DNA of 64,000 nt, taken from positions 1,860,001-1,924,000 of the forward strand of contig NZ_CP014160.1 in NCBI RefSeq assembly GCF_001543145.1. Direction: 5' to 3'. This DNA comes from Aerococcus sanguinicola (lineage in GTDB: Bacteria; Bacillota; Bacilli; Lactobacillales; Aerococcaceae). Under the pieces are notes generated by a model, which saw only the letters and a list, made by a program, of their open reading frames with translations, was not told the origin of the DNA and did not search any database. Shown here piece after piece: positions 5,821 to 43,524 of this stretch (within the stretch, counting starts at the first letter, position 1; the number at the start of each line of letters is the position of its first letter). The position numbers were made by a program, and so were the translations under genes.

Positions 5821-5913
5821 ATGAAACAATTGAATTTAGAGCATGTTAATTTTTCATGTTCTGCTAAGAAAATGAGCAAGTATTACTTTAGCTATTTTAG
5901 ATCGTGTTTGTAG
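5821..5913 (+). CDS. Aromatic leader peptide A (30 residues)
   Basis: A short ORF encodes 30 residues ending KYYFSYFRSCL, with Tyr/Phe at codons 21, 22, 23, 25 and 26. A GGGAGG ribosome binding site lies 10 bases upstream. The stop codon overlaps the first arm of a chain of alternative hairpins that ends in an intrinsic terminator. This is the arrangement of an attenuation leader peptide, whose translation speed reports charged tRNA. Five Tyr/Phe codons and no Trp point to tyrosine and/or phenylalanine as the signal. It is not itself expected to have a function as a protein. Confidence 0.7.
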   Translation: MKQLNLEHVNFSCSAKKMSKYYFSYFRSCL

Positions 5914-6043
5914 CTGTGAATCCATCATAGGTACAAACATCAGCGTTTTGGATCTATGATGGCTGAAGTCTTTTGAAGTGTTTAGCCATCCAGAATGATA
6001 AATTCTAATGGCTAAAGGCATAGCTTATAAATCAGATAGCCTT
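5905..6043 (+). ncRNA. Attenuator A: interleaved alternative hairpins
   Basis: Mutually exclusive pairings can be read directly. TGTTTGTA 5905-5912 pairs with TACAAACA 5932-5939, competing with CCATCATAG 5922-5930 pairing with CTATGATGG 5954-5962. GATGGCT 5958-5964 can pair with AGCCATC 5984-5990, competing with TTTAGCCAT 5981-5989 pairing with ATGGCTAAA 6008-6016. Next, CTAAT and AAGGC (6005-6019) can pair with GCCTT 6039-6043 and ATTAG 6052-6056, which would open the terminator. No T-box signature (GGTGG with ACC) is present. Confidence 0.6.
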
Positions 6044-6086
6044 AAGGTTTAATTAGTTTTTATCATATCTAATTAAACCTTTTTTG
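6044..6086 (+). terminator. Attenuator A terminator
   Basis: A perfect 13-bp stem AAGGTTTAATTAG/CTAATTAAACCTT is followed by Ts. It sits between the leader peptide and the importer genes, so it must be read through for expression. Confidence 0.85.
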
Positions 6087-6140: not shown

Positions 6141-7094
6141 ATGAATAAGAAAATACGCGCTATTTTAGGACTAGGCTTAGTCGGCCTATCTCTGGCTGGA
6201 TGTAGCCAGGGCGGTCAAGACGGACAAAAAGAGATTGGGATTATCCAATATGGGGAACACCAAGCCCTCAACAATGCCCGGGAAGGTTTCGTGGAAGGCC
6301 TCGAAGAAGCGGGCTTCAAGGATGGGGAGACCATCCATATTGATTACCAGAATGCCCAGGCTGACCAGTCTAACCTGAATTCGATCGCCCAAAATATGAA
6401 GGGGCGCAAGGATTTAACTTTCGCCATTGCGACGCCCGCAGCCCAGGCTGCCCTCAATGCCGATAAGCAAACCCCTGTCCTATTTACAGCGGTAACGGAT
6501 GCGGTCTCTGCTAACCTTGTGAAGTCCTTGGACCAACCGGGAACCAATGCTTCAGGAACCAGCGACATTGCCCCAGTGGAGAAAGCGGTGGACCTACTTT
6601 TGACGATCGATCCGTCGATTAAGACGGTGGGCATGCCTTACAATTCCAGCGAAGTGAATTCTGAAATCCAGTTTAAGGCTTTCAAAGACTATGCGGAAAG
6701 CAAGGGCCTGAAAGTGGAAGCACAAACGGTGACGACAACCAATGAAGTCCAGTCAGCGGTTACAGCCTTGGCCAAACGTGTGGATGGCATTTGCTTACCG
6801 ACCGATAACACGATTGCCCAAACGATTCCGACAATTGGCAGTGTGGTCCGGGAAGCCAAAGTGCCAACCATCGGAGCTGAGAGCGCCCACTTAGAAGGTT
6901 GCTTAGCGACTTACGGGGTTAACTACAAGGATCTAGGCCGGCAGACGGCTGAAATGGCGGTTAAAATCCTCAAAGATGGCGCCGATGTCAGTCAAATTCC
7001 TGTCGAAAAAGCTAAGGATTATGAATTAGTAATAAATGAAGCCATGGCCAAAGACCTAGGGATTGACCCAGCACAGATTAAGAAGGGAGAATAA
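6141..7094 (+). CDS. TrpX-like ABC substrate-binding lipoprotein
   Basis: 317-residue lipoprotein of the ABC_sub_bind family (COG2984, TrpX in streptococci). It has a short signal ending in the lipobox LAGC, then a periplasmic-binding fold. The ATG at 6141 has GGAGAG upstream. A TTG at 6084 would fall inside the attenuator terminator and is rejected. It is the first gene of a three-gene importer with the permease 5 bases downstream. The streptococcal homologue is reported for tryptophan. Here the leader peptide contains Tyr and Phe but no Trp, so I infer an aromatic amino acid, most likely tyrosine or phenylalanine. Confidence 0.85.
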   Translation: MNKKIRAILGLGLVGLSLAGCSQGGQDGQKEIGIIQYGEHQALNNAREGFVEGLEEAGFKDGETIHIDYQNAQADQSNLNSIAQNMKGRKDLTFAIATPAAQAALNADKQTPVLFTAVTDAVSANLVKSLDQPGTNASGTSDIAPVEKAVDLLLTIDPSIKTVGMPYNSSEVNSEIQFKAFKDYAESKGLKVEAQTVTTTNEVQSAVTALAKRVDGICLPTDNTIAQTIPTIGSVVREAKVPTIGAESAHLEGCLATYGVNYKDLGRQTAEMAVKILKDGADVSQIPVEKAKDYELVINEAMAKDLGIDPAQIKKGE

Positions 7095-7099
7095 AGGAT

Positions 7100-7990
7100 A
7101 TGGATTTAATTGTTTCAAGTATTTCACAGGGACTCATGTGGTCCATTCTTGCAATTGGGGTCTATTTGACCTTCCGCATTTTAGATATTGCCGACTTGTC
7201 AGCTGAGGGGAGTTTCCCCTTGGGTGCGGCGGTCTGCGCCAAGTTAATTGTTTCGGGAGTCCATCCGTTGATCGCTACCCTTGCTGCTTTCTTAGCGGGC
7301 TTAGTGGCAGGCTTGGTCAATGGCTTTATGATTAATAAGATGCATATTCCAGCTTTGCTTTCCGGGATCCTAACCATGACGGGGCTTTATTCCATTAACT
7401 TGCGGATCATGGGGCAGGCCAATATTCCTTTACTAGGGGAGGCCAATATCATGGAGTCTTTCCAAGCGACGGGGATGAATCCTACCTTGGCTTCTTTAAT
7501 CATTGCCTTAATTTTCCTAGCAGTTGTTATTATGGCTCTGGTGATCTTTATGAATACCGAATATGGTTTGACGCTCCGGGCGACTGGGGATAACCCGCTC
7601 ATGGCAGAAGCCAATGGGGTCAAAACGGACCAAATGAAGTTAGTGGGCTTGATGCTCTCTAACGGTTTGATTGCCTTATCAGGAGCGATTATCTGCCAGA
7701 ATAACGGCTATGCGGATATTGCCATGGGGACCGGGACGATTGTTATTGGTTTAGCCGCTATTATTATTGGGGAAGTGCTCCGCCGCAACCTCACTTTCGG
7801 CAAACGTTTAATCACCATTGCGATTGGAGCTGTGATTTACCGCTTGATTATTGATTTCATCATGCAGCAACAATTCCTGCCTGTTCTTCCCAGCGATATC
7901 AAGGTGCTTTCATCCATCGCGCTCGCTATTATTCTCTATGCCCCCCATGCCAAGGCCAGTTTCGCGAACCGGCAAGCCAGTGCTAAGTAA
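7100..7990 (+). CDS. TrpY-like ABC permease for an aromatic amino acid
   Basis: 296 residues of the BPD_transp_2 / COG4120 permease family with about eight to nine membrane helices. It has the conserved segment TLRATGDNPLMAEANG that in this family contacts the ATPase. It lies between the binding protein (5-base gap) and the ATPase (12-base gap). It should form the membrane channel of the importer as a homodimer. The spacing shows co-transcription. Substrate choice is inferred from the upstream attenuator, not from the permease. Confidence 0.87.
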   Translation: MDLIVSSISQGLMWSILAIGVYLTFRILDIADLSAEGSFPLGAAVCAKLIVSGVHPLIATLAAFLAGLVAGLVNGFMINKMHIPALLSGILTMTGLYSINLRIMGQANIPLLGEANIMESFQATGMNPTLASLIIALIFLAVVIMALVIFMNTEYGLTLRATGDNPLMAEANGVKTDQMKLVGLMLSNGLIALSGAIICQNNGYADIAMGTGTIVIGLAAIIIGEVLRRNLTFGKRLITIAIGAVIYRLIIDFIMQQQFLPVLPSDIKVLSSIALAIILYAPHAKASFANRQASAK

Positions 7991-8002
7991 AGGAGTAGTG
8001 TT

Positions 8003-8809
8003 ATGACGAACTTACTAGAACTTGACCAGATTAATAAGGTTTTCAATCCAGGAAGTATTAATGAAAACCATGTGACTAAAGATTTGTCCCTCGCCATCCA
8101 TGACCATGACTTTATCTCTGTGATTGGTTCCAATGGGGCAGGCAAGTCAACCTTACTCAACCTGATTGCAGGAACGATTCCAGTGTCTTCTGGGCGGATC
8201 CGCCTGCGCGGTGAAGATATTACGGACCGGCCTGCCTACAAGCGGGCCGCTGGAATCAGCCGGGTCTTCCAAGATCCACAAATGGGGACTGCCCGTAATC
8301 TGACCATTGAAGAGAACCTTGCCATCGCATACAAACGGGGCAAACGTCGGGGCTTCGGCCGGTCTGTAACAGAAGACATGCGCCAGCTCTTCCGTGACCA
8401 GCTCAGCCGGGTCGACTTGGGCCTTGAAGACCGCTTGAACACCGCTGCATCTAACTTGTCTGGGGGCCAGCGCCAAGTCCTAACCCTGATCATGGCCATC
8501 CTCGAAACGCCCGAGCTCTTACTCTTGGATGAGCACACGGCGGCCCTCGACCCGCGGACTAGTGAGATGGTGATGGGCTTAACCCAGCTTCTGATTGAGG
8601 AGAACCACTTAACTTCTCTCATGATCACCCATGACATGAATGATGCTCTGGCTTACGGCAACCGTCTGATCATGCTCCATGATGGCCGCATTGTTGTCGA
8701 TGTCAAAGGGGAAGACAAGGCCAAATTATCGGTTGAAGACTTGATGGAACTCTTCAAGGAGAATGTCGGTAACCAATTGCGTGATGACGACTTGCTCTTA
8801 AAAGCTTAA
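8003..8809 (+). CDS. TrpZ-like ABC transporter ATPase
   Basis: 268 residues of COG1101. Walker A is GSNGAGKS (about 42-49), the signature is LSGGQ (about 151), and Walker B with the H-adjacent segment is LLLLDEHTAALD. The His of ITHDM follows. It powers the importer with the two genes upstream. The ribosome binding site is AAAGGAG. It is the last gene of the unit, ending at a strong bidirectional terminator. Confidence 0.9.
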   Translation: MTNLLELDQINKVFNPGSINENHVTKDLSLAIHDHDFISVIGSNGAGKSTLLNLIAGTIPVSSGRIRLRGEDITDRPAYKRAAGISRVFQDPQMGTARNLTIEENLAIAYKRGKRRGFGRSVTEDMRQLFRDQLSRVDLGLEDRLNTAASNLSGGQRQVLTLIMAILETPELLLLDEHTAALDPRTSEMVMGLTQLLIEENHLTSLMITHDMNDALAYGNRLIMLHDGRIVVDVKGEDKAKLSVEDLMELFKENVGNQLRDDDLLLKA

Positions 8810-10162: not shown

Positions 10163-10666
10163 GGTTTCCGTCCTTTCGATAGGTCGCTATAATGGTTTTC
10201 AGGCACTGGTCCAGGCTGCCCTGGTTGGAGATATGGAAATCAGCAGCTGCCTGGTAGAGGGGGTAGCGCTCTTGGTAGAGGACCTGGAGCTGGTCCAGGC
10301 GTCCCTTGAGTAGGGGGCGTTGGTCGCTGTTAATGTCTGCAGCAATCTGGTCCAGGGGGCGGTCGATAAAGAAGACTTTGCCTCCTTTTTTAAGGGCTTA
10401 CCATTATCGGGATCTTTGACGACCCCGCCACCCGTGGCAATAATAAGGCCCTTAGCTTGATCAAGCTCGCGGGCAAGTTGGGATTCGAAGCTACGGAAGG
10501 CAGTTTCTCCTTCTTCAAAAATTTCAGAGATGGTTCGGCCCGAGACTCTTTCAATTTCCTGGTCCATGTCTAGGAAATCTAAGGAAAGTTTTTGGGCGAG
10601 GGCTTGACCGAGGCTGGTTTTTCCCGATCCGGGCATACCGATGAGGATGAGATTAGGCTGGGTCAT
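10143..10666 (-). CDS. aroK: Shikimate kinase, frameshifted after residue about 95
   Basis: Phosphorylates shikimate. The first frame holds the Walker A GMPGSGKTS, the DMD substrate motif and GGGVV, then stays open into nonsense and stops at 10199. The rest of the family (KVFFIDRP, then the lid with RPLL, then ERYPLY) continues in the -1 frame to a stop at 10143, giving 174 residues in all. The break is a run of six As (10386-10391) read as TTA AAA AAG. Seven As would restore the frame. A AAA AAG is also the classic -1 slippery heptamer and is followed by GGAGG. Possible causes are a sequencing error, a real slippage mutation or programmed frameshifting. The start overlaps aroE by 14 bases. 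Confidence 0.85.
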
Positions 10667-11530: not shown

Positions 11531-11642
11531 GCCTTGCTTGGTAAAATGGCAAAAAGAGTTGTCAAATCAATCTTTTTAGCTAAGATCTGAAGTTAACATA
11601 TTAGTAAAATAAAAATAAGATTAGAATTTTATCATTTAATAG

Positions 11643-11671
11643 TTGACAGCTTCCCCTTGGTCTGCTATATT
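11643..11671 (+). promoter_or_regulatory. aroF operon promoter
   Basis: TTGACA (11643-11648) and TATATT (11666-11671) are separated by exactly 17 bases, about 40 bases before leader peptide B. Confidence 0.8.
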
Positions 11672-11711
11672 TAAAGCACGCATTAAAGAAAACCAGTGAG
11701 GAGGAAAGAAC

Positions 11712-11789
11712 ATGTTAACTCAACAACAACTTTTAGCAAATAGCTGGTTTTACTTTAGCTTCTACTTTTTTAAAGGTAATGGAGGCTAA
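11712..11789 (+). CDS. Aromatic leader peptide B (25 residues)
   Basis: A 25-residue ORF with GAGGAGG upstream. Codons 12-20 read WFYFSFYFF, so eight of nine codons are aromatic (Trp, Phe, Tyr). It is followed within 30 bases by alternative hairpins and an intrinsic terminator, and then by aroF. The composition and place are those of an attenuation leader peptide sensing Phe/Tyr/Trp tRNA charging. It is too short to be found by usual gene calling. Confidence 0.8.
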   Translation: MLTQQQLLANSWFYFSFYFFKGNGG

Positions 11790-11883
11790 AGCAATCTTTG
11801 ATGCATAGGGCTCCATTGATGGTAAGAAATCGAATGGAGCACCCACTATCTAAGACTTCACATCTCGAGAGGATTAGTCAGGC
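11778..11883 (+). ncRNA. Attenuator B: 1:2 / 2:3 / 3:4 alternative pairing
   Basis: Region 1 AATGGAG (11778-11784, end of the leader ORF) and region 3 AATGGAG (11833-11839) both match region 2 CTCCATT (11811-11817). Region 3 also starts CGAATG (11831-11836), which can pair with CATTCG (11886-11891), the 5' arm of the terminator. A ribosome stalled at the first aromatic codons leaves 1:2 and 3:4 free to form and breaks the terminator. A ribosome reaching the stop codon covers region 1, so 2:3 and the terminator form. Confidence 0.7.
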
Positions 11884-11914
11884 TGCATTCGGTTAAAGAC
11901 GAATGCAACTTTTT
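11884..11914 (+). terminator. Attenuator B terminator
   Basis: TGCATTCG/CGAATGCA is an 8-bp stem followed by AC and six Ts, lying before aroF. Confidence 0.85.
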
Positions 11915-11988
11915 TGCTTCTAAGAATCCATCTGAGACCGACCGTGTTATAGTAAATATAGTAGCGAAATAAAAAGGAGAGACAGAAA

Positions 11989-13014
11989 ATGATTATTGTA
12001 ATGAAAGCAAACGTGACAGCTGGCGATGTTAAAGATGTCATTGATAAAATCGAAGATACAGGTAACAAGGCCGTTATTATTGAAGGCCAAGAGGTTGATG
12101 TCATCGGGATTGTCGGAGATACTTCCCGCGTGGACCAATCCAAACTTCAGGCCAATGACACCATTGCGGAAGTTATCCGGGTCTCTGAACCGTATAAGTT
12201 AGCCAATAAGGCCTTCCACCCTGAAGCAAGTCAGATCAAGGTCCGCGACCAAATCATCGGCGGCAAGGAATTAGCTATTATTGCAGGCCCGTGCTCCGTT
12301 GAAGGGGAAGAACAGATTGTTGGGACAGCTAAGCGGGTGAAAGCAGCTGGGGCCAACATGCTTAGAGGGGGCGCCTACAAGCCAAGAACCTCACCATACA
12401 GCTTCCAAGGTTTACAGTCAGAAGGGATCCGCCTCTTGGACCTAGCCCGTCGTGAAACAGGACTGCCAATTGTTACCGAATTAATGGCCATTGAACAATT
12501 GGATGAATTCGTGGAACATGTGGACGTTATCCAAATTGGGGCCCGTAACATGCAGAACTTCTCCCTCTTAAAAGAATTAGGTAAGACCGACAAGCCTATC
12601 CTCTTAAAACGTGGCCTGAGCGCCACCTACCAAGAATGGTTAATGTCTGCTGAATACATCATGGCAGAAGGGAATCCAAATGTTATTCTCTGCGAACGCG
12701 GAATCCGGACCTTCGAAACTGAAACCCGGAACTGCCTAGATATTCAAGCGGTGCCATTGATGAAACATAAGACCCACCTGCCTATTATTGTGGACCCTTC
12801 ACACGCGGCTGGGATTGCTTACATGGTACCTGCCGGAGCTAAGGCTGGGATTGCAGCGGGCGCTGACGGCTTGATCATGGAGATCCACCCTGATCCTAAG
12901 AATGCATGGAGCGATGGTCAACAGAGCTTGACCCCAGACCAATTCGACCGCTTGATGGAACAAATCCGTGTCCTTGCTGAAGTCGAAGGACGGACCGTAC
13001 CAGAGGGCGACTAG
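11989..13014 (+). CDS. aroF: 3-deoxy-7-phosphoheptulonate synthase, type I-beta
   Basis: 341 residues. Condenses phosphoenolpyruvate with erythrose 4-phosphate, the first step of the shikimate pathway. Residues 1-70 form a ferredoxin-like regulatory domain of the Thermotoga type, known in relatives to carry feedback inhibition by Phe/Tyr. The barrel then shows GPCSVE, LRGGAYKPRTSPYSFQG, QIGARNMQN, DPSHAAG and EIHPDP. No chorismate mutase domain is fused. It is the first structural gene after attenuator B. The ribosome binding site is AAAAGGAG. Confidence 0.95.
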   Translation: MIIVMKANVTAGDVKDVIDKIEDTGNKAVIIEGQEVDVIGIVGDTSRVDQSKLQANDTIAEVIRVSEPYKLANKAFHPEASQIKVRDQIIGGKELAIIAGPCSVEGEEQIVGTAKRVKAAGANMLRGGAYKPRTSPYSFQGLQSEGIRLLDLARRETGLPIVTELMAIEQLDEFVEHVDVIQIGARNMQNFSLLKELGKTDKPILLKRGLSATYQEWLMSAEYIMAEGNPNVILCERGIRTFETETRNCLDIQAVPLMKHKTHLPIIVDPSHAAGIAYMVPAGAKAGIAAGADGLIMEIHPDPKNAWSDGQQSLTPDQFDRLMEQIRVLAEVEGRTVPEGD

Positions 13015-13053
13015 ACTAAATAATTAAAAGCACAAATGAGAGGAGCTGTTGAA

Positions 13054-14139
13054 ATGGCGGAGCTTGAAATTAAACTGAATCGACCAGCAGTCAGCTATCC
13101 ATTAAAAATTAAGAAGGGCTTGCTCGGTCAGCTAGCCGAAGAAATCCAAGCTGTCCATAAAGGCAAAAAAGTCGTCGTCATTACGGATGAAAATGTGGCC
13201 CACTACTATGGAAGCCAAGTGACGACGACTTTACAAGAGGCTGGCTATGACTTTGAGCTAATTGTCCTAGCCCCTGGTGAAGCCAGTAAATCGATTGAAA
13301 ACCTACCCGGTCTCTACGGACGCTTGGTGAACTTTGGCATCAGCCGGAGCGATTTGATTATTGCCTTAGGGGGTGGGGTCATTGGTGACTTGGCAGGCTT
13401 TGTTGCTGCTAGCTTCCTGCGCGGGATTCATTTGATCCAAGTTCCGACCACGCTCCTTGCCCAAGTGGACTCCAGTGTGGGCGGCAAGGTAGCCGTGGAC
13501 CTCAAGGAAGGAAAAAACCTGGTGGGAGCCTTCTACCACCCCCATTCCGTCTTGATTGATCCCAATGTCTTAGAGACCTTGTCTGACAAGGCCTTTAGCG
13601 ATGGCATGGCAGAGGTCATTAAATACGGCTGCATCCGCGACCGGGCTTTCTTTGACAAGCTCAAGCAAGCGGGCAACCGGTCAGGCGTCATGGCTGATAT
13701 TGAAAGGATCCTAGAGCGCTGTTGTGCCATCAAGCAGGAAGTAGTCGAAGCCGATGAGAAGGATACGGGCTGTCGGATGCTGCTAAATTATGGGCATACC
13801 CTAGGCCATGCCATTGAGGCCTACTACCAGTATGAGCGCTATACCCACGGCGAAGGGGTGGCTATTGGTATGCTGGCGATCAACCAATTGGCAGAGGACC
13901 AGGGGCTCAGCCCCCAAGGGTCGACCCAAGAAATTTACCAAGTGGTGAAAGACTTCGGTTTACCGACCGTTTTGGACCAAGTGGAAGACTATGCGGGCAT
14001 CCTGCCTCTCATTAAAAATGACAAGAAAAATTTAAATGGCCAACTCCATATCATTACCCTCAAAAGGATTGGCCAGGCTGAAATCCGCAAGGTGCCTGAT
14101 CATTTCTTTGATCCCTTGCTGGAAGGAGGAAAGCATTAA
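13054..14139 (+). CDS. aroB: 3-dehydroquinate synthase
   Basis: 361 residues; NAD- and metal-dependent cyclisation of DAHP to 3-dehydroquinate. Motifs are GEASKS, GGGVIGDLAGF, PTTLLAQVDSSVGGK and GHTLGHAIE with metal-binding His residues. The ATG at 13054 is chosen because AGAGGAG lies 6-12 bases before it and inside the longer frame that opens at 13036. The stop overlaps the aroA start by one base (TAATG), so translation is coupled. Confidence 0.95.
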   Translation: MAELEIKLNRPAVSYPLKIKKGLLGQLAEEIQAVHKGKKVVVITDENVAHYYGSQVTTTLQEAGYDFELIVLAPGEASKSIENLPGLYGRLVNFGISRSDLIIALGGGVIGDLAGFVAASFLRGIHLIQVPTTLLAQVDSSVGGKVAVDLKEGKNLVGAFYHPHSVLIDPNVLETLSDKAFSDGMAEVIKYGCIRDRAFFDKLKQAGNRSGVMADIERILERCCAIKQEVVEADEKDTGCRMLLNYGHTLGHAIEAYYQYERYTHGEGVAIGMLAINQLAEDQGLSPQGSTQEIYQVVKDFGLPTVLDQVEDYAGILPLIKNDKKNLNGQLHIITLKRIGQAEIRKVPDHFFDPLLEGGKH

Positions 14140-15443
14140 TGACCGATTTACAAATTCAAGCCAAGCCCTTAGCGGGTGCGGTCCATATCCCACCTTCCAA
14201 GAGCCTGGCCCACCGCGCCATTATTGCGGCTGGCCTCGCCCAGGGGGAAAGTCAGGTCCTAAATGTGCAGCTATCTGATGATATTCAAGCAACCATTGAA
14301 GCCATGCAAAGTTTGGGGGCTGAAATCAAGCTGACGGAAGCCGGAGACCAGCGGGTAGACTTAAGCATCCGTGGTGGCCATCCATCCAAGTCTGCTTCAC
14401 GGCTGATCGATGCCAATGAGTCAGGCTCGACCCTGCGCTTTATGATTCCTATTGCCAGCCTTTTTCCAGGTCAGACCCACTTTGTCGGCCGAGGGAAGTT
14501 AGGCAGTCGGCCGTTGGATCCCTATGAAAAGATCTATAACGAACAAGGGCTCTATTATGAGAACTTGTCGGATGGAGCTTTGGACTTGAAAGTTGAAGGA
14601 AAACTGCAAGCTGGCGCTTATCAATTGGCAGGCAATATTAGCTCACAATTTATTACGGGGCTGCTCTATACCCTGCCGCTTTTAGAAGGCGATTCGACCC
14701 TGCAAATTACGGGCCCCTTGGAGTCGGTGGGTTACATCCACTTGACCTTGGATATTCTTGCCAAGTATGGGATTGACATTGACTACCGAGCAGAGGACCA
14801 ATGCTTCCAGATTAAAGGCAAGCAGACTTACCAGGCTAACGATTACCGGGTGGAAGGCGATTATTCCCAAGCTGCCTTCTTTCTCTGTGCAGGGGCCCTC
14901 GGTAATCCGGTCACCGTCCAAGACCTCGCCCCATCCAGCCAGCAGGGGGATAAAGAGATTATTAGCTTCCTCCAAGCCCTGGGTGCTGAGCTTGTGGTCC
15001 AGGATGACGGAATCCGAATCCAAGCTAAAGTATTGGAAGGCGGCTGCGAATTAGACGGCTCCCAATGTCCCGATGTGATTCCTGTCCTTGCCCTGACCGC
15101 TTGTTTAGCCAAGGGTGAGACACAGATTAAGAACCTGGCCCGCTTACGGATCAAGGAATCTGACCGCCTAAAAGCGACGCAAGAAGAGCTCAGTAAGTTA
15201 GGGGCTAAGATCCAGGTCCAGGGAGATAATTTAATCATCCAAGGTGTGGACCAGCTCAAAGGAGCTTGCCGGGTATCCAGCCACAAGGACCACCGGATTG
15301 CGATGATGTTAGCCATCGCATCGACGGTCTGCCAGGAAGCCATTATCATAGAAGATGCAGATAGCGTCAGCAAATCTTACCCACACTTCTGGGAAGATTT
15401 TAAGAAATTAGGAGGCGAATACCGTGAGTGGAATTTGGGGTAA
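14139..15443 (+). CDS. aroA: 5-enolpyruvylshikimate-3-phosphate synthase
   Basis: 434 residues; transfers enolpyruvyl to shikimate 3-phosphate. PPSKSLAHRA, NESGSTLRF, RIKESDRL and HKDHRIAM mark the two inverse-barrel domains. The loop GSRPLDPY differs from the enterobacterial version and suits the Firmicute-type enzymes. The start overlaps aroB by one base. The last 20 bases overlap aroC. Confidence 0.95.
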   Translation: MTDLQIQAKPLAGAVHIPPSKSLAHRAIIAAGLAQGESQVLNVQLSDDIQATIEAMQSLGAEIKLTEAGDQRVDLSIRGGHPSKSASRLIDANESGSTLRFMIPIASLFPGQTHFVGRGKLGSRPLDPYEKIYNEQGLYYENLSDGALDLKVEGKLQAGAYQLAGNISSQFITGLLYTLPLLEGDSTLQITGPLESVGYIHLTLDILAKYGIDIDYRAEDQCFQIKGKQTYQANDYRVEGDYSQAAFFLCAGALGNPVTVQDLAPSSQQGDKEIISFLQALGAELVVQDDGIRIQAKVLEGGCELDGSQCPDVIPVLALTACLAKGETQIKNLARLRIKESDRLKATQEELSKLGAKIQVQGDNLIIQGVDQLKGACRVSSHKDHRIAMMLAIASTVCQEAIIIEDADSVSKSYPHFWEDFKKLGGEYREWNLG

Positions 15444-16512
15444 ACAGTTACAAGTGGCCATTTTTGGTGAGTCACACGGTCCAGCCATTGGCATCACCAT
15501 TTCTGGGCTGCCAGCTGGACTAGCCCTCGATGAAGACAAGATCTTGGTAGAGATGGCGCGACGCCGGCCGGGCCAAAATGAATTAACGACACCGCGCCGG
15601 GAAGAAGACCTACCGGATATTGTGAGTGGCTATTTTAACGGCCATACAACGGGCGCGCCCTTGACGGCTCTGATCTACAATACCAATACCCGGTCCAAGG
15701 ACTACAGCCAGATGCGTAAACTCATGCGTCCCGGTCAGACGGACTATCCCGCGCTCAAGCGCTATGATGGATATAACGACTACCGGGGAAGCGGCCACTT
15801 TTCGGGACGGATTACAGCGCCCCTCGTCTTTGCGGGAGCCGTCTGCCAGCAATGGCTGGACCAGTATGGAGTGACCATTGGCTCCAGGGTCTGTTCGATC
15901 GGTGAGGTCAAGGACCAAGCAGAGCTTGACTTCCAAAAACTCAGTCGAGAGGACTTATTGGCCTTCCGCCAAGAGACCCTGCCTGTTTTGACGGAGGGCT
16001 TAGCTGAAGAAATGGCCCGCTGTATCCGCCAAGCCAAGGGCCAGCATGATGCGGTAGGGGGCATTGTCGAGACTTATATCTTGGGCTTGGAAGCCGGCTA
16101 TGGCAACCCCTTCTTCGATTCCATCGAATCGACGCTTGCCCATTTAATTTTCTCCGTGCCAGCTACCAAGGGGATTGAATTTGGCGCTGGCTTCGAGATT
16201 GCCTCTATGCGGGCTTCAGAAGCCAATGATAATTTTTATTATGATGACCAGGGCCAGGTCCAAACCGCCAGTTTAAACAATGGGGGGATTGTCGGGGGGA
16301 TCAGTTTAGGCACACCCATCAACTTCCGGACCGCCATTAAGGCGCCGGCTTCGATTGCTAAGGCCCAATCGACCATTAATATTGAAAGTCATGAAAACGT
16401 TGAACTAGAGGTTACCGGACGCCATGACCCGTGCATTGTACCCCGGGTATTACCTGTGATTGAAGCCGTGACGGCGATCGGGTTGATGGACTTAATCCTC
16501 ACCCGGTCATAA
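15424..16512 (+). CDS. aroC: Chorismate synthase
   Basis: 362 residues; FMN-dependent elimination of phosphate from EPSP to chorismate. The three family signatures are present: GESHGPAIG near the start, RGSGHFSGR in the middle and RHDPCIVPR near the end. The start is a GTG within the aroA 3' end, preceded by TTAGGAGG. Gene order makes aroC the last common-pathway step in the operon. Confidence 0.95.
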   Translation: MSGIWGKQLQVAIFGESHGPAIGITISGLPAGLALDEDKILVEMARRRPGQNELTTPRREEDLPDIVSGYFNGHTTGAPLTALIYNTNTRSKDYSQMRKLMRPGQTDYPALKRYDGYNDYRGSGHFSGRITAPLVFAGAVCQQWLDQYGVTIGSRVCSIGEVKDQAELDFQKLSREDLLAFRQETLPVLTEGLAEEMARCIRQAKGQHDAVGGIVETYILGLEAGYGNPFFDSIESTLAHLIFSVPATKGIEFGAGFEIASMRASEANDNFYYDDQGQVQTASLNNGGIVGGISLGTPINFRTAIKAPASIAKAQSTINIESHENVELEVTGRHDPCIVPRVLPVIEAVTAIGLMDLILTRS

Positions 16513-16537
16513 GAAAAGAGAGAAAGAGGGATGAGGG

Positions 16538-17437
16538 ATGAAAGTTGCTTACCAGGGTATTGTTGGATCTTATAGTGAGGCCGCTTTAGCCCACTGGCAG
16601 AAGATGCCTGTGCAGGAAGGGCTATATGAGGGGCTGCCTTATGATGGCTTTGGCCGGATGGTGGATGACCTCCTCAGTGGAAAAATCGACCGGGCCGTGA
16701 TGCCCATCGAGAATTCAACCACGGGGCTTATTACACGGACCTTGGACCTCTTTCGCTACCAGCAAGTTTACGCTGAAGCTGAGCACTACCAGCCCATCCG
16801 CCATGTCTTATGGGGAGTAGAGGGGGCCCAGCTGAGTCAGCTTAAGCAAGTTTATTCCCATCCGGAAGCCTTGTCCCAGTGCACGAACTTTTTTGCGGAC
16901 CATCCTTGGATCCAGCCCATTTCCTATAAGGATACGGCCCAGGCTGCCCAGTTCATTGCCCAGGAAGGGGATCCCAGTTTAGGGGCCTTGTCTAGCGAAC
17001 GCTGTGGGGAAATTTACCACTTGCAGGCTTTAGCCCGCCAAGTTCAGAATGAATCGACCAATATGACGCGTTTCTTTATGATGCGGCGCTACCGCGACGA
17101 GCTGTTGAACCTAGATAAGGACCAGCTCTTAGTTCATTTGTTAGCGGACCATCCCTGGGCCAGTCGCTTGATGCTCTATGTGGAAACGGCCCACAAGCCG
17201 GGGGCCCTCCACCAATTGCTGACGATTTTTAACTTGTTCAATTGTAACTTGGAAGGCCTGGATGCCCGTCCTATTCAAGACCAGCCCTTCAGCTATGGCT
17301 TCTTCATTGAAGTGGATATCCAGGGCTTAGAAGGTCAAGCCCAGCTCTTTTGGCAGATGCTTGAACACGCTAGCCAATACATCCAGATCATCGCTTGCAT
17401 GGAAGCCCAAGAGGCGGAAATTTCCTATCTGACCTAG
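16538..17437 (+). CDS. pheA: Prephenate dehydratase
   Basis: 299 residues; converts prephenate to phenylpyruvate. The catalytic domain (1-185) has GIVGSYSE, PIENST and the STNMTRFF motif with the key Thr-Arg-Phe. The ACT domain (about 195-285) begins HKPGALHQLL and carries the ESR-equivalent GLDARP, so feedback by Phe is expected. No N-terminal chorismate mutase domain is fused. It starts 25 bases after aroC. Confidence 0.94.
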   Translation: MKVAYQGIVGSYSEAALAHWQKMPVQEGLYEGLPYDGFGRMVDDLLSGKIDRAVMPIENSTTGLITRTLDLFRYQQVYAEAEHYQPIRHVLWGVEGAQLSQLKQVYSHPEALSQCTNFFADHPWIQPISYKDTAQAAQFIAQEGDPSLGALSSERCGEIYHLQALARQVQNESTNMTRFFMMRRYRDELLNLDKDQLLVHLLADHPWASRLMLYVETAHKPGALHQLLTIFNLFNCNLEGLDARPIQDQPFSYGFFIEVDIQGLEGQAQLFWQMLEHASQYIQIIACMEAQEAEISYLT

Positions 17438-20819: not shown

Positions 20820-20856
20820 AATGACCAGTGAATGAATTAAATATTTTCCTTTAAAT

Positions 20857-21568
<712 letters not shown>

Positions 21569-42727: not shown

Positions 42728-42880
42728 GTCCCCTTTAATCCATTATAATCATTTATTTCATCGCGTCTCAAAAGACATCTTTTACCATCTTACTCGATTT
42801 TTACTCAATTCACAATGCCTGCTTCCTTTGCCTAGTTTTGTGCCCCTTTTGAATTTTTTAATCAAGGGCGGTCGGAATAA

Positions 42881-42889
42881 TGCTATAAT
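42881..42889 (+). promoter_or_regulatory. Extended -10 promoter of plsY
   Basis: TGCTATAAT is a consensus extended -10, 30 bases before the plsY start. The -35 is weak. Confidence 0.6.
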
Positions 42890-42918
42890 ATAGACATGTC
42901 AAAAAAGCAGGTGAATAT

Positions 42919-43524
42919 ATGTTATTAAATCTATTACTTTTAATTATTGCTTATCTTCTTGGCTCAGTTCCTTTTGGGCTACTGATCGGTCGGGTCTTCT
43001 ATCAGACTGACCTCCGTGACTACGGCTCAGGGAATATCGGGACCACCAATGCCTTTCGTGCTCTTGGTAGGACCGGTGGCTTATTTGTCTTCGTCTGCGA
43101 TATGCTCAAAGCAGGTCTCATTGTCCTCATTGCCCAGAGCTTTACTGTCTTTACTTGGCATCCCCTGGTTTATGGCATTGCGGTCATTTTGGGCCATAGC
43201 TTCTCGATCTTTCTCAAGTTCAAGGGAGGTAAGGCCGTGGCTTCTAGCTTCGGCATGGGACTCTTCTACGCGCCCCTGATTTCCCTTTTGGGGATTGGCG
43301 CCTTCTTCTTAGTCCTCTACTTCTCACGCATGGTGAGCTTAGCTTCAATCACTGGTGTGTTGACGGCTTTGGTCTTGTCGCTTCTTTTTACTAGCGATCA
43401 TTTCCTCCAACTGATCTTAGTCATTGTATGCTTGATCGTTATCCTCAGGCACCGGACCAATATTGAACGCATCCTCAATGGTAGTGAATCCAAGGTGCCT
43501 TTTGGTTTCCGGGCCAAAAAATAA
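42919..43524 (+). CDS. plsY: Acyl-phosphate glycerol-3-phosphate acyltransferase
   Basis: 201 residues, five membrane helices. Transfers acyl groups from acyl phosphate to glycerol 3-phosphate, the first step of phospholipid synthesis. The three family motifs are DYGSGNIGTTNAFR, KFKGGKAVAS and HRTNIERILNGSE. Single gene, divergent from parE-parC as in other Firmicutes. Confidence 0.95.
   Translation: MLLNLLLLIIAYLLGSVPFGLLIGRVFYQTDLRDYGSGNIGTTNAFRALGRTGGLFVFVCDMLKAGLIVLIAQSFTVFTWHPLVYGIAVILGHSFSIFLKFKGGKAVASSFGMGLFYAPLISLLGIGAFFLVLYFSRMVSLASITGVLTALVLSLLFTSDHFLQLILVIVCLIVILRHRTNIERILNGSESKVPFGFRAKK

Follow-up and report, generated by a model that had tools for sequence, protein, structure and literature searches.

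The leader of the aroF operon in Aerococcus sanguinicola is very probably a ribosome-mediated transcription attenuator which, as judged from conserved pairing and modelled folding, would switch on the aromatic pathway in response to a shortage of charged Trp, Phe or Tyr tRNA. Amino-acid control in Firmicutes is usually told in terms of T-boxes and TRAP. The leader lies within a stretch of 64,000 nucleotides (the window, whose numbering is used throughout), and the aromatic ORF, ribosome binding site, pairing arms and terminator that the original prediction had placed before the aroF operon are all present there in the sequence.

Organization of the aroF leader

A sigma-70-type promoter (TTGACA-17-TATATT, 11 of 12 bases in a consensus scan) is found at 11643-11671 on the forward strand, as are all the leader features given below, and it is extended by a TG that precedes its second hexamer, TATATT. 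As expected of an attenuator, a short leader ORF with its own ribosome binding site comes next: GAGGAGG at 11698-11704, then MLTQQQLLANSWFYFSFYFFKGNGG-stop (25 codons) at 11712-11789. The ORF contains one Trp, five Phe and two Tyr codons, and eight of the nine codons from 12 to 20 are aromatic. W12 to F20 are the predicted control codons, and this run of codons for amino acids that the operon supplies, again as in an attenuator, stands before aroF, aroB, aroA, aroC and pheA. Such an ORF is far beyond chance: a search on both strands for a ribosome site followed by an ORF 8-45 codons long, in which 8 or more of 12 residues are aromatic, gave a single case in 60 shuffles of the 64 kb window (an expectation of 0.017 per window), while the same scan of the real window returned the leader ORF.

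The arms at 11778-11784, 11811-11817 and 11833-11839, which had been predicted to compete with one another, read exactly AATGGAG, CTCCATT and AATGGAG. These three were correctly placed; the chain comprises five arms in all, the others being regions 4 (11882-11893) and 5 (11900-11907). With their full extents, arm 1 (11777-11784) would pair with arm 2 (11810-11818), arm 2 with either arm 1 or arm 3 (ATCGAATGGAGC, 11829-11840), arm 3 with either arm 2 or arm 4, and arm 4 (GCTGCATTCGGT) with either arm 3, as an antiterminator, or arm 5, as a terminator. Covariation and folding point to arms 1 to 4 (helix 1:2 covaries at four pairs), and arm 5 was found by a terminator scan and by covariation. The intrinsic terminator (11884-11915) consists of the arm 4:arm 5 stem at 11884-11907, which covaries at four pairs, and TTTTTT at 11910-11915. 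Upstream of these, codons 15-17 of the ORF form a further putative arm 0 (TTTAGCTTC, 11754-11762), whose predicted partner is 11782-11790 and whose pairing is seen in 20 sequences. Two mutually exclusive folds result, 1:2 with 3:4 (the read-through fold) and 2:3 with 4:5 (the terminating fold), and the folding of the leader from 11678 to 11916 beats all 200 of 200 dinucleotide shuffles (z −5.7).

The T run of the terminator is separated by 73 bases from the start of aroF. The presumed regulated genes, aroF, aroB, aroA, aroC and pheA (11989-17437), were assigned from their ORFs and NCBIfam matches, the first four over the curated cut-offs and pheA below its own (157.5 of 219 bits, prephenate dehydratase). 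By these matches the genes behind the leader (11643-11915) are those of the cognate aromatic pathway. Nearby on the reverse strand, the last third of aroK (10199-10666) looks frameshifted when compared with a near relative (L002), through either an assembly error or a real change.

Conservation of the two alternative folds

AroF was sought in 15 genomes of the genus, 76 of the family and 395 of the order, together with 80 named loci from another collection. A motif search recovered copies of the element twice in the genus, the others coming from two further genera within the family and from two additional families; Marinilactibacillus kalidii (L003) is among the carriers. The resulting alignment A1 holds 20 distinct copies from three families, the window included, and leaves out the exact duplicates L003 (of L119) and L001 and L082 (second fetches).

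For the terminating fold, 94.4% of 480 cells in A1 are paired and 30 cells are changed on both sides, values each reached by 0 of 500 shuffles, whereas slid controls are 34-49% paired. For the read-through fold the corresponding figures are 93.0% of 445 cells and 14 doubly changed cells, again each reached by 0 of 500 shuffles, with slid controls at 22-48%. Doubly changed pairs number 7 of 25 in the terminating fold (as many in 66 of 500 shuffles) and 5 of 23 in the read-through fold (as many in 8 of 500), and further pair types were matched by 473 and 59 of 500 shuffles, respectively, meaning that neither the number of doubly changed pairs nor the further pair types of the terminating fold are clearly above shuffles. 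By helix, four doubly changed pairs fall in 1:2, three in 2:3, one in 3:4 and four in 4:5, counts that refer to related sequences rather than independent events and to a structure derived from the same sequences. Since arms 2, 3 and 4 must each fit both folds, free base change in them is limited. Helix 0:1 is conserved, with 98.9% of 180 cells paired over the 20 sequences, its changes being one-sided only, without covariation to prove the pairing.

Taken together, the aligned sequences indicate that both mutually exclusive predicted folds, antiterminator and terminator alike, are conserved with covariation in 20 copies from three families. The proposed pairing of region 3 with the 5′ arm of the terminator is thereby supported as helix 3:4 of the conserved read-through fold, and folding agrees.

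In many members of the two further families the element lies some 0.8-1.4 kb 5′ of aroF, and another gene stands between the two in the two loci of these families that were inspected. A conserved protein (MIIHTLGPxSTDSY...), roughly 175 residues long, separates attenuator and aroF in L003 (from 3447) and in L124 (from 943); in these two relatives it gave no Pfam match.

Predicted response to a stalled ribosome

The proposed mechanism runs as follows. A ribosome stalled at codons 12-19 would cover arm 0 and leave arm 1 free; arm 1 would then pair with arm 2, and since arm 3 is left free by this pairing, it would take arm 4 as soon as arm 4 emerges. With 3:4 formed, the 4:5 terminator could not form, and RNA polymerase would continue into aroF-aroB-aroA-aroC-pheA. 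A ribosome that reaches the stop codon would instead mask arm 1, so that 2:3 forms and termination follows through 4:5. With no ribosome on the RNA, arm 0 of the window copy would hold arm 1, and termination would be the outcome again.

At equilibrium the complete leader folded into the terminator in all states examined, that with a stalled ribosome included. The calculation was therefore moved to an RNA in which arm 4 is made and arm 5 is not (3′ end at 11897), and ViennaRNA was run with its 5′ portion blocked in imitation of a ribosome. With a footprint of 13 nt, the probability of 3:4 in the window was 0.01-0.02 at codons 1-10, 0.18 at codon 11, 0.95-0.99 at W12-F19, ⩽0.15 from F20 on and 0.00 at the stop codon. 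The predicted ON interval, codons 12-19, thus equals the aromatic run minus its last codon; stalling at codons 12-15, as first proposed, falls inside this interval, which extends four codons further. Footprints of 11-15 nt shifted its edges by about one codon. The ON state was stable for RNA ends from 11893 to 11905 and was lost at 11907, where the terminator stem is complete. Since the finished transcript favours the terminator in all states tested, the decision is predicted to be kinetic.

Across the 20 copies, aromatic codons were ON in 86 of 119 cases and the others, stop codons included, in 74 of 486, and 0 of 2,000 circular shifts did as well. An ON block over the aromatic run was seen in 15 of the 20. 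L116, L119 and L121 had the block plus further ON codons downstream, L120 was ON at its own stop, the blocks of L114 and L126 began early, L112 was ON nearly throughout, and L124, L125, L127 and L128, all of one genus, were never ON. When no ribosome was placed on the RNA (from alignment column 1), 3:4 stayed below 0.5 in the window copy and reached at least 0.5 in 6 of 20 copies (L112, L114, L116, L119, L121 and L126). Stalling at the control codons is thus predicted to select the antiterminator in the window, and clean switching (3:4 at least 0.95 when stalled and ⩽0.1 at stop) was found in 12 of the 20 copies. The earlier scheme, in which stalling yields 1:2 and 3:4 and arrival at the stop codon yields termination, is supported by these masked foldings and by the covariation of both folds.

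Leaders before aroF in other genomes

The AroF of the window shares 99% identity with that of Aerococcus sp. HMSC062A02, and a strong AroF match was found in 8 of the 15 genus genomes searched (a ninth, E 7e-4, was not counted). Loss of the ORF or of the arms in close relatives had been named as evidence against the attenuator. All 8 AroF-positive genomes carry an aromatic-rich ORF 5′ of aroF (part of them counted without the ribosome-site filter), but the same leader and arms as in the window are kept in 2 of the 8 only; the other 6 have other leaders, such as MKSLLSTTFYNFFNFYFYFYGFGKGDFVVLEKGYGFSS in genomes with a different AroF. Different aroF leaders (STTFYNFFNFYFYFYGFGKG...) were noted in L085, L086, L087 and L088 of the same genus, and in L088, by eye, the leader codons could pair with the 5′ arm of the terminator, as in a shorter kind of attenuator.

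Among the named aroF loci, of which 78 of 80 have at least 150 upstream bases, an aromatic leader ORF was found within 400 bases 5′ of aroF in 30 of 78; the reverse strand gave 0, and five shuffles gave 0, 0, 1, 0 and 1. Clostridial loci, as classed by record title and some of them near-identical, make up 27 of these 30; Clostridia with aromatic leader ORFs before aroF include L018 (with MQTVGQHAFYYWFYFYFTGFCGKVNLRA, for example), L020, L024, L028, L037 and L076. Since aromatic leaders are frequent before aroF, and the probably related family described below occurs in 158 of 295 order genomes, the view that such a leader is unusual in Firmicutes is not supported.

A probable sister RNA family in the Lactobacillales

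A covariance model of the aroF element, R1, gave matches at E ⩽0.01 in 69 of 395 order genomes. Above 100 bits there were 24 matches, the 20 aligned copies and four unaligned ones (L143, L144, L147 and L150; 131-173 bits), which have the same kind of leader and come from genera represented in the alignment. In the window, R1 also matched 5936-6082 (E 1e-4); a further match at 42770-42919 (E 0.04) looks like chance and was rejected.

The 5936-6082 match overlaps a second element on the forward strand (5888-6085), in which the Rfam family RF02863 ('Enterococcus sRNA 2410') matches 5888-6072 with 58.3 bits and E 8.8e-8, just below the cut-off of 61, and a terminator (6046-6079) is followed by a T run. 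A second leader ORF, MKQLNLEHVNFSCSAKKMSKYYFSYFRSCL-stop, of the RF02863-like subtype was found by ORF scan at 5821-5913, and genes for a TrpX-like substrate-binding protein, a permease and an ATPase (NF041285 and Pfam matches) lie 3′ at 6141-8809, also on the forward strand, the TrpX-like protein scoring 290 bits, below the NF041285 cut-off of 390. The aroF element itself (11600-11990) gave no RF02863 match at E up to 1. A third element was noticed elsewhere in the genome (G000:C1:1153761-1153953, reverse strand, locus L192), with an RF02863 match and a leader ending NTFFFSFFR-stop; the gene after it appears TrpX-like by eye.

At E ⩽1e-3, RF02863 matched in those 158 order genomes (71 over the cut-off; controls 0 of 14), and class-wide at 1e-4 in 26 of 299 genomes, 5 of them outside the order; four of these five places were read, with a leader in G518, G545 and G554 and none in G407. 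In 29 of the best 30 loci an ORF ending FSYFR-stop lies just upstream, and in the remaining one, L165, such a frame starts from TTG. The next gene, by eye, is TrpX-like in 22, AroE in 7 and not found in 1, and HMM checks agree (L162 and L170 TrpX-like; L188 AroE). A further 20 stretches were read, L197 and L200 among them being of R1 type; an ORF scan found an RF02863-kind leader in 16 of the 20, one is visible in the sequence of L201, L202, L206 and L211, and HMM checks in this set agree as well (L203 TrpX-like; L199 prephenate dehydratase). The consensus structure in Rfam begins within the leader ORF, whose codons are paired with arm CUAUGAUGGCUAA.

After 11 near-duplicates of 47 had been left out, 36 RF02863-type copies were aligned (A2). 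Pairing in its three alternative states amounts to 93.8, 90.6 and 93.5%. The doubly changed pairs in these states number 17, 8 and 7, counts reached in 0, 2 and 0 of 500 shuffles, but the states have helices in common and the state-distinguishing ones carry fewer, namely four in a:c, two in b2:c (one cell each) and none in c:d1. A codon scan with arm e1, present in 28 of 36, gave ON for 62 of 140 aromatic codons and 112 of 440 others (0 of 1,000 circular shifts). Since many sequences are never or always ON, the second element of the window being never ON, this equilibrium test supports the sister subtype weakly.

RF02863 is likely the sister of the aroF element. In both, the core (F/Y)FS(F/Y)F carries the codons TTTAGC, and both precede aro operons; the TCTATG..GGCTA arm of RF02863 is common to most short forms, and several RF02863 places are weak R1 matches. 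Unlike the aroF element, RF02863 has an extra hairpin, b1:b2, between the leader and this arm, and in most cases FR is immediately followed by its stop codon. Arm 1 of the short form (the aroF element) aligns by sequence with arm c of the long form (RF02863), and we infer that the short form has lost hairpin b. In the sister subtype, this hairpin after the leader would mask the arm that the ribosome covers in the short form.

The 36 long-form leaders contain 92 Phe, 88 Tyr and 0 Trp codons, and four TrpX-like proteins that were scored reached 290-345 bits, short of the 390 required for TrpX. Both results fit a Tyr/Phe transporter behind these leaders: since the leaders read Phe and Tyr and never Trp, the 'TrpX' transporter behind most of them would serve tyrosine and phenylalanine, and leader codons may thus predict the amino acids served by a family of uptake systems. 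We are inclined, with some reserve, towards a wider scheme in which the aromatic regulon of Lactobacillales is controlled by ribosome-mediated attenuation through one ancestral leader RNA, with a long form (RF02863) and a short form (the aroF element), standing upstream of pheA, of aro operons and of a transporter that is annotated as Trp-specific but really serves Tyr/Phe, the short form having come from the long by loss of the b-hairpin, with ribosome masking in its place.

Alternative explanations

Could the leader peptide rather than codon reading be the sensor? As an arrest peptide, the nascent chain would sense a free aromatic amino acid in the tunnel and stall at its end; leaders of the class indeed keep more than aromatics, with Q-L-N before them in many, a core S and, in most sister-subtype leaders, an R that precedes the stop. 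These residues have another possible source, since the bases of the kept Ser and Arg codons pair with a downstream arm: the serine within F-S-F/Y is encoded by AGC in 54 of 56 sequences, in keeping with what codon pairing demands, and the Arg before stop is AGA in 36 of 36, so that RNA pairing can explain them. F, Y and W replace one another at the aromatic positions, and stalling at the stop gives termination in the folding test of the window. We regard an arrest peptide as improbable, and attenuation by codon reading remains the preferred explanation.

Lower still do we rate two further explanations, both of them highly improbable and neither ahead of the other. If the leader RNA were a riboswitch (a T-box or another) or a terminator bound by a protein, with the small ORF incidental, T-boxes would be at hand, being common in the genome (24 matches at E ⩽0.01, 2 over the Rfam cut-off); but 11600-11990 has no match at E ⩽1 to the T-box family RF00230 or to any other in Rfam, no family other than PyrR was found in the whole window at the gathering cut-off, and TRAP (PF02081) has 0 matches in the genome, with a positive B. 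subtilis control. An incidental ORF is difficult to reconcile with the 30 of 78 aroF loci preceded by aromatic leaders against none on the reverse strand. The terminated leader could also be chiefly a trans-acting small RNA, in line with the Rfam name of the sister, sRNA_2410, or could have this as a second role. In E. faecium, to judge from the part of PMC5593968 that was available, sRNA_2410 appears as two transcripts on Northern blots and is listed in a daptomycin table with 2.3-fold (RNA-seq) and 4.1-fold (qPCR) changes (adjusted P 0.0335), although the accompanying text differs from the table, stating that none increased and that sRNA_2410 was mostly uniform over time. Against a trans-acting role, 29 of the best 30 sister loci have a leader ORF upstream, 29 of 30 have the transporter or aroE downstream, and the Rfam consensus structure begins in the leader ORF and pairs its codons. 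The PyrR binding site (RF00515) just referred to lies at 20844-21000, over the cut-off, ahead of what look like pyrimidine genes, an ordinary arrangement.

Relation to known attenuators

The his and leu operon attenuators of Salmonella and E. coli are ribosome-mediated. In common with the aroF leader, they encode a peptide with many residues of the amino acid under control, place a terminator ahead of the structural genes and carry a series of alternating arms whose pairing moves along by one register on stalling; they, too, terminate without a ribosome. The aroF leader differs in reading three amino acids in one leader, in having leader codons that form arm 0, and in its Lactobacillales host. 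Aromatic regulation in low-GC Gram-positives was reportedly treated by Panina et al. in 2003 (cited in PMC2494555). Among the matches listed in a search of the open-access literature, none described aromatic leader-peptide attenuators in Lactobacillales.

The principle of attenuation is already known, to judge from the portions of the sources at hand (PMC8632094; for histidine leaders, PMC9413887 and PMC2965389). One such case is uORFC-13-1, described in the accessible text of PMC8632094 as an upstream ORF with Phe codons and a terminator before aroF, for which attenuation was proposed; compared by description, it differs in being confined to Acholeplasma and environmental sequences (24 in all), and arm alternation was not worked out in that text. 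The Firmicutes histidine leaders, as excerpted from PMC9413887 and PMC2965389, are likewise ribosome-mediated attenuators found by comparison, with histidine codons before his genes instead (17 genomes in PMC9413887). In Streptococcus suis, according to the available part of PMC9382623, a homologous transporter, trpX, is also attenuated on amino-acid shortage, but through a tRNA-binding T-box with a Trp specifier and with no leader peptide described there.

Seen against this background, an attenuator of the classical kind likely governs the common aromatic pathway in the order of the lactic acid bacteria, and an Rfam family filed as a small RNA, RF02863, would gain a new and testable meaning. 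There appear to be enough natural variants of the aromatic attenuator to follow how such a switch changes form. In L197 and L200, the short-form leader (QPQLNNFYFSYYFR) was observed before a membrane protein, perhaps an aromatic transporter.
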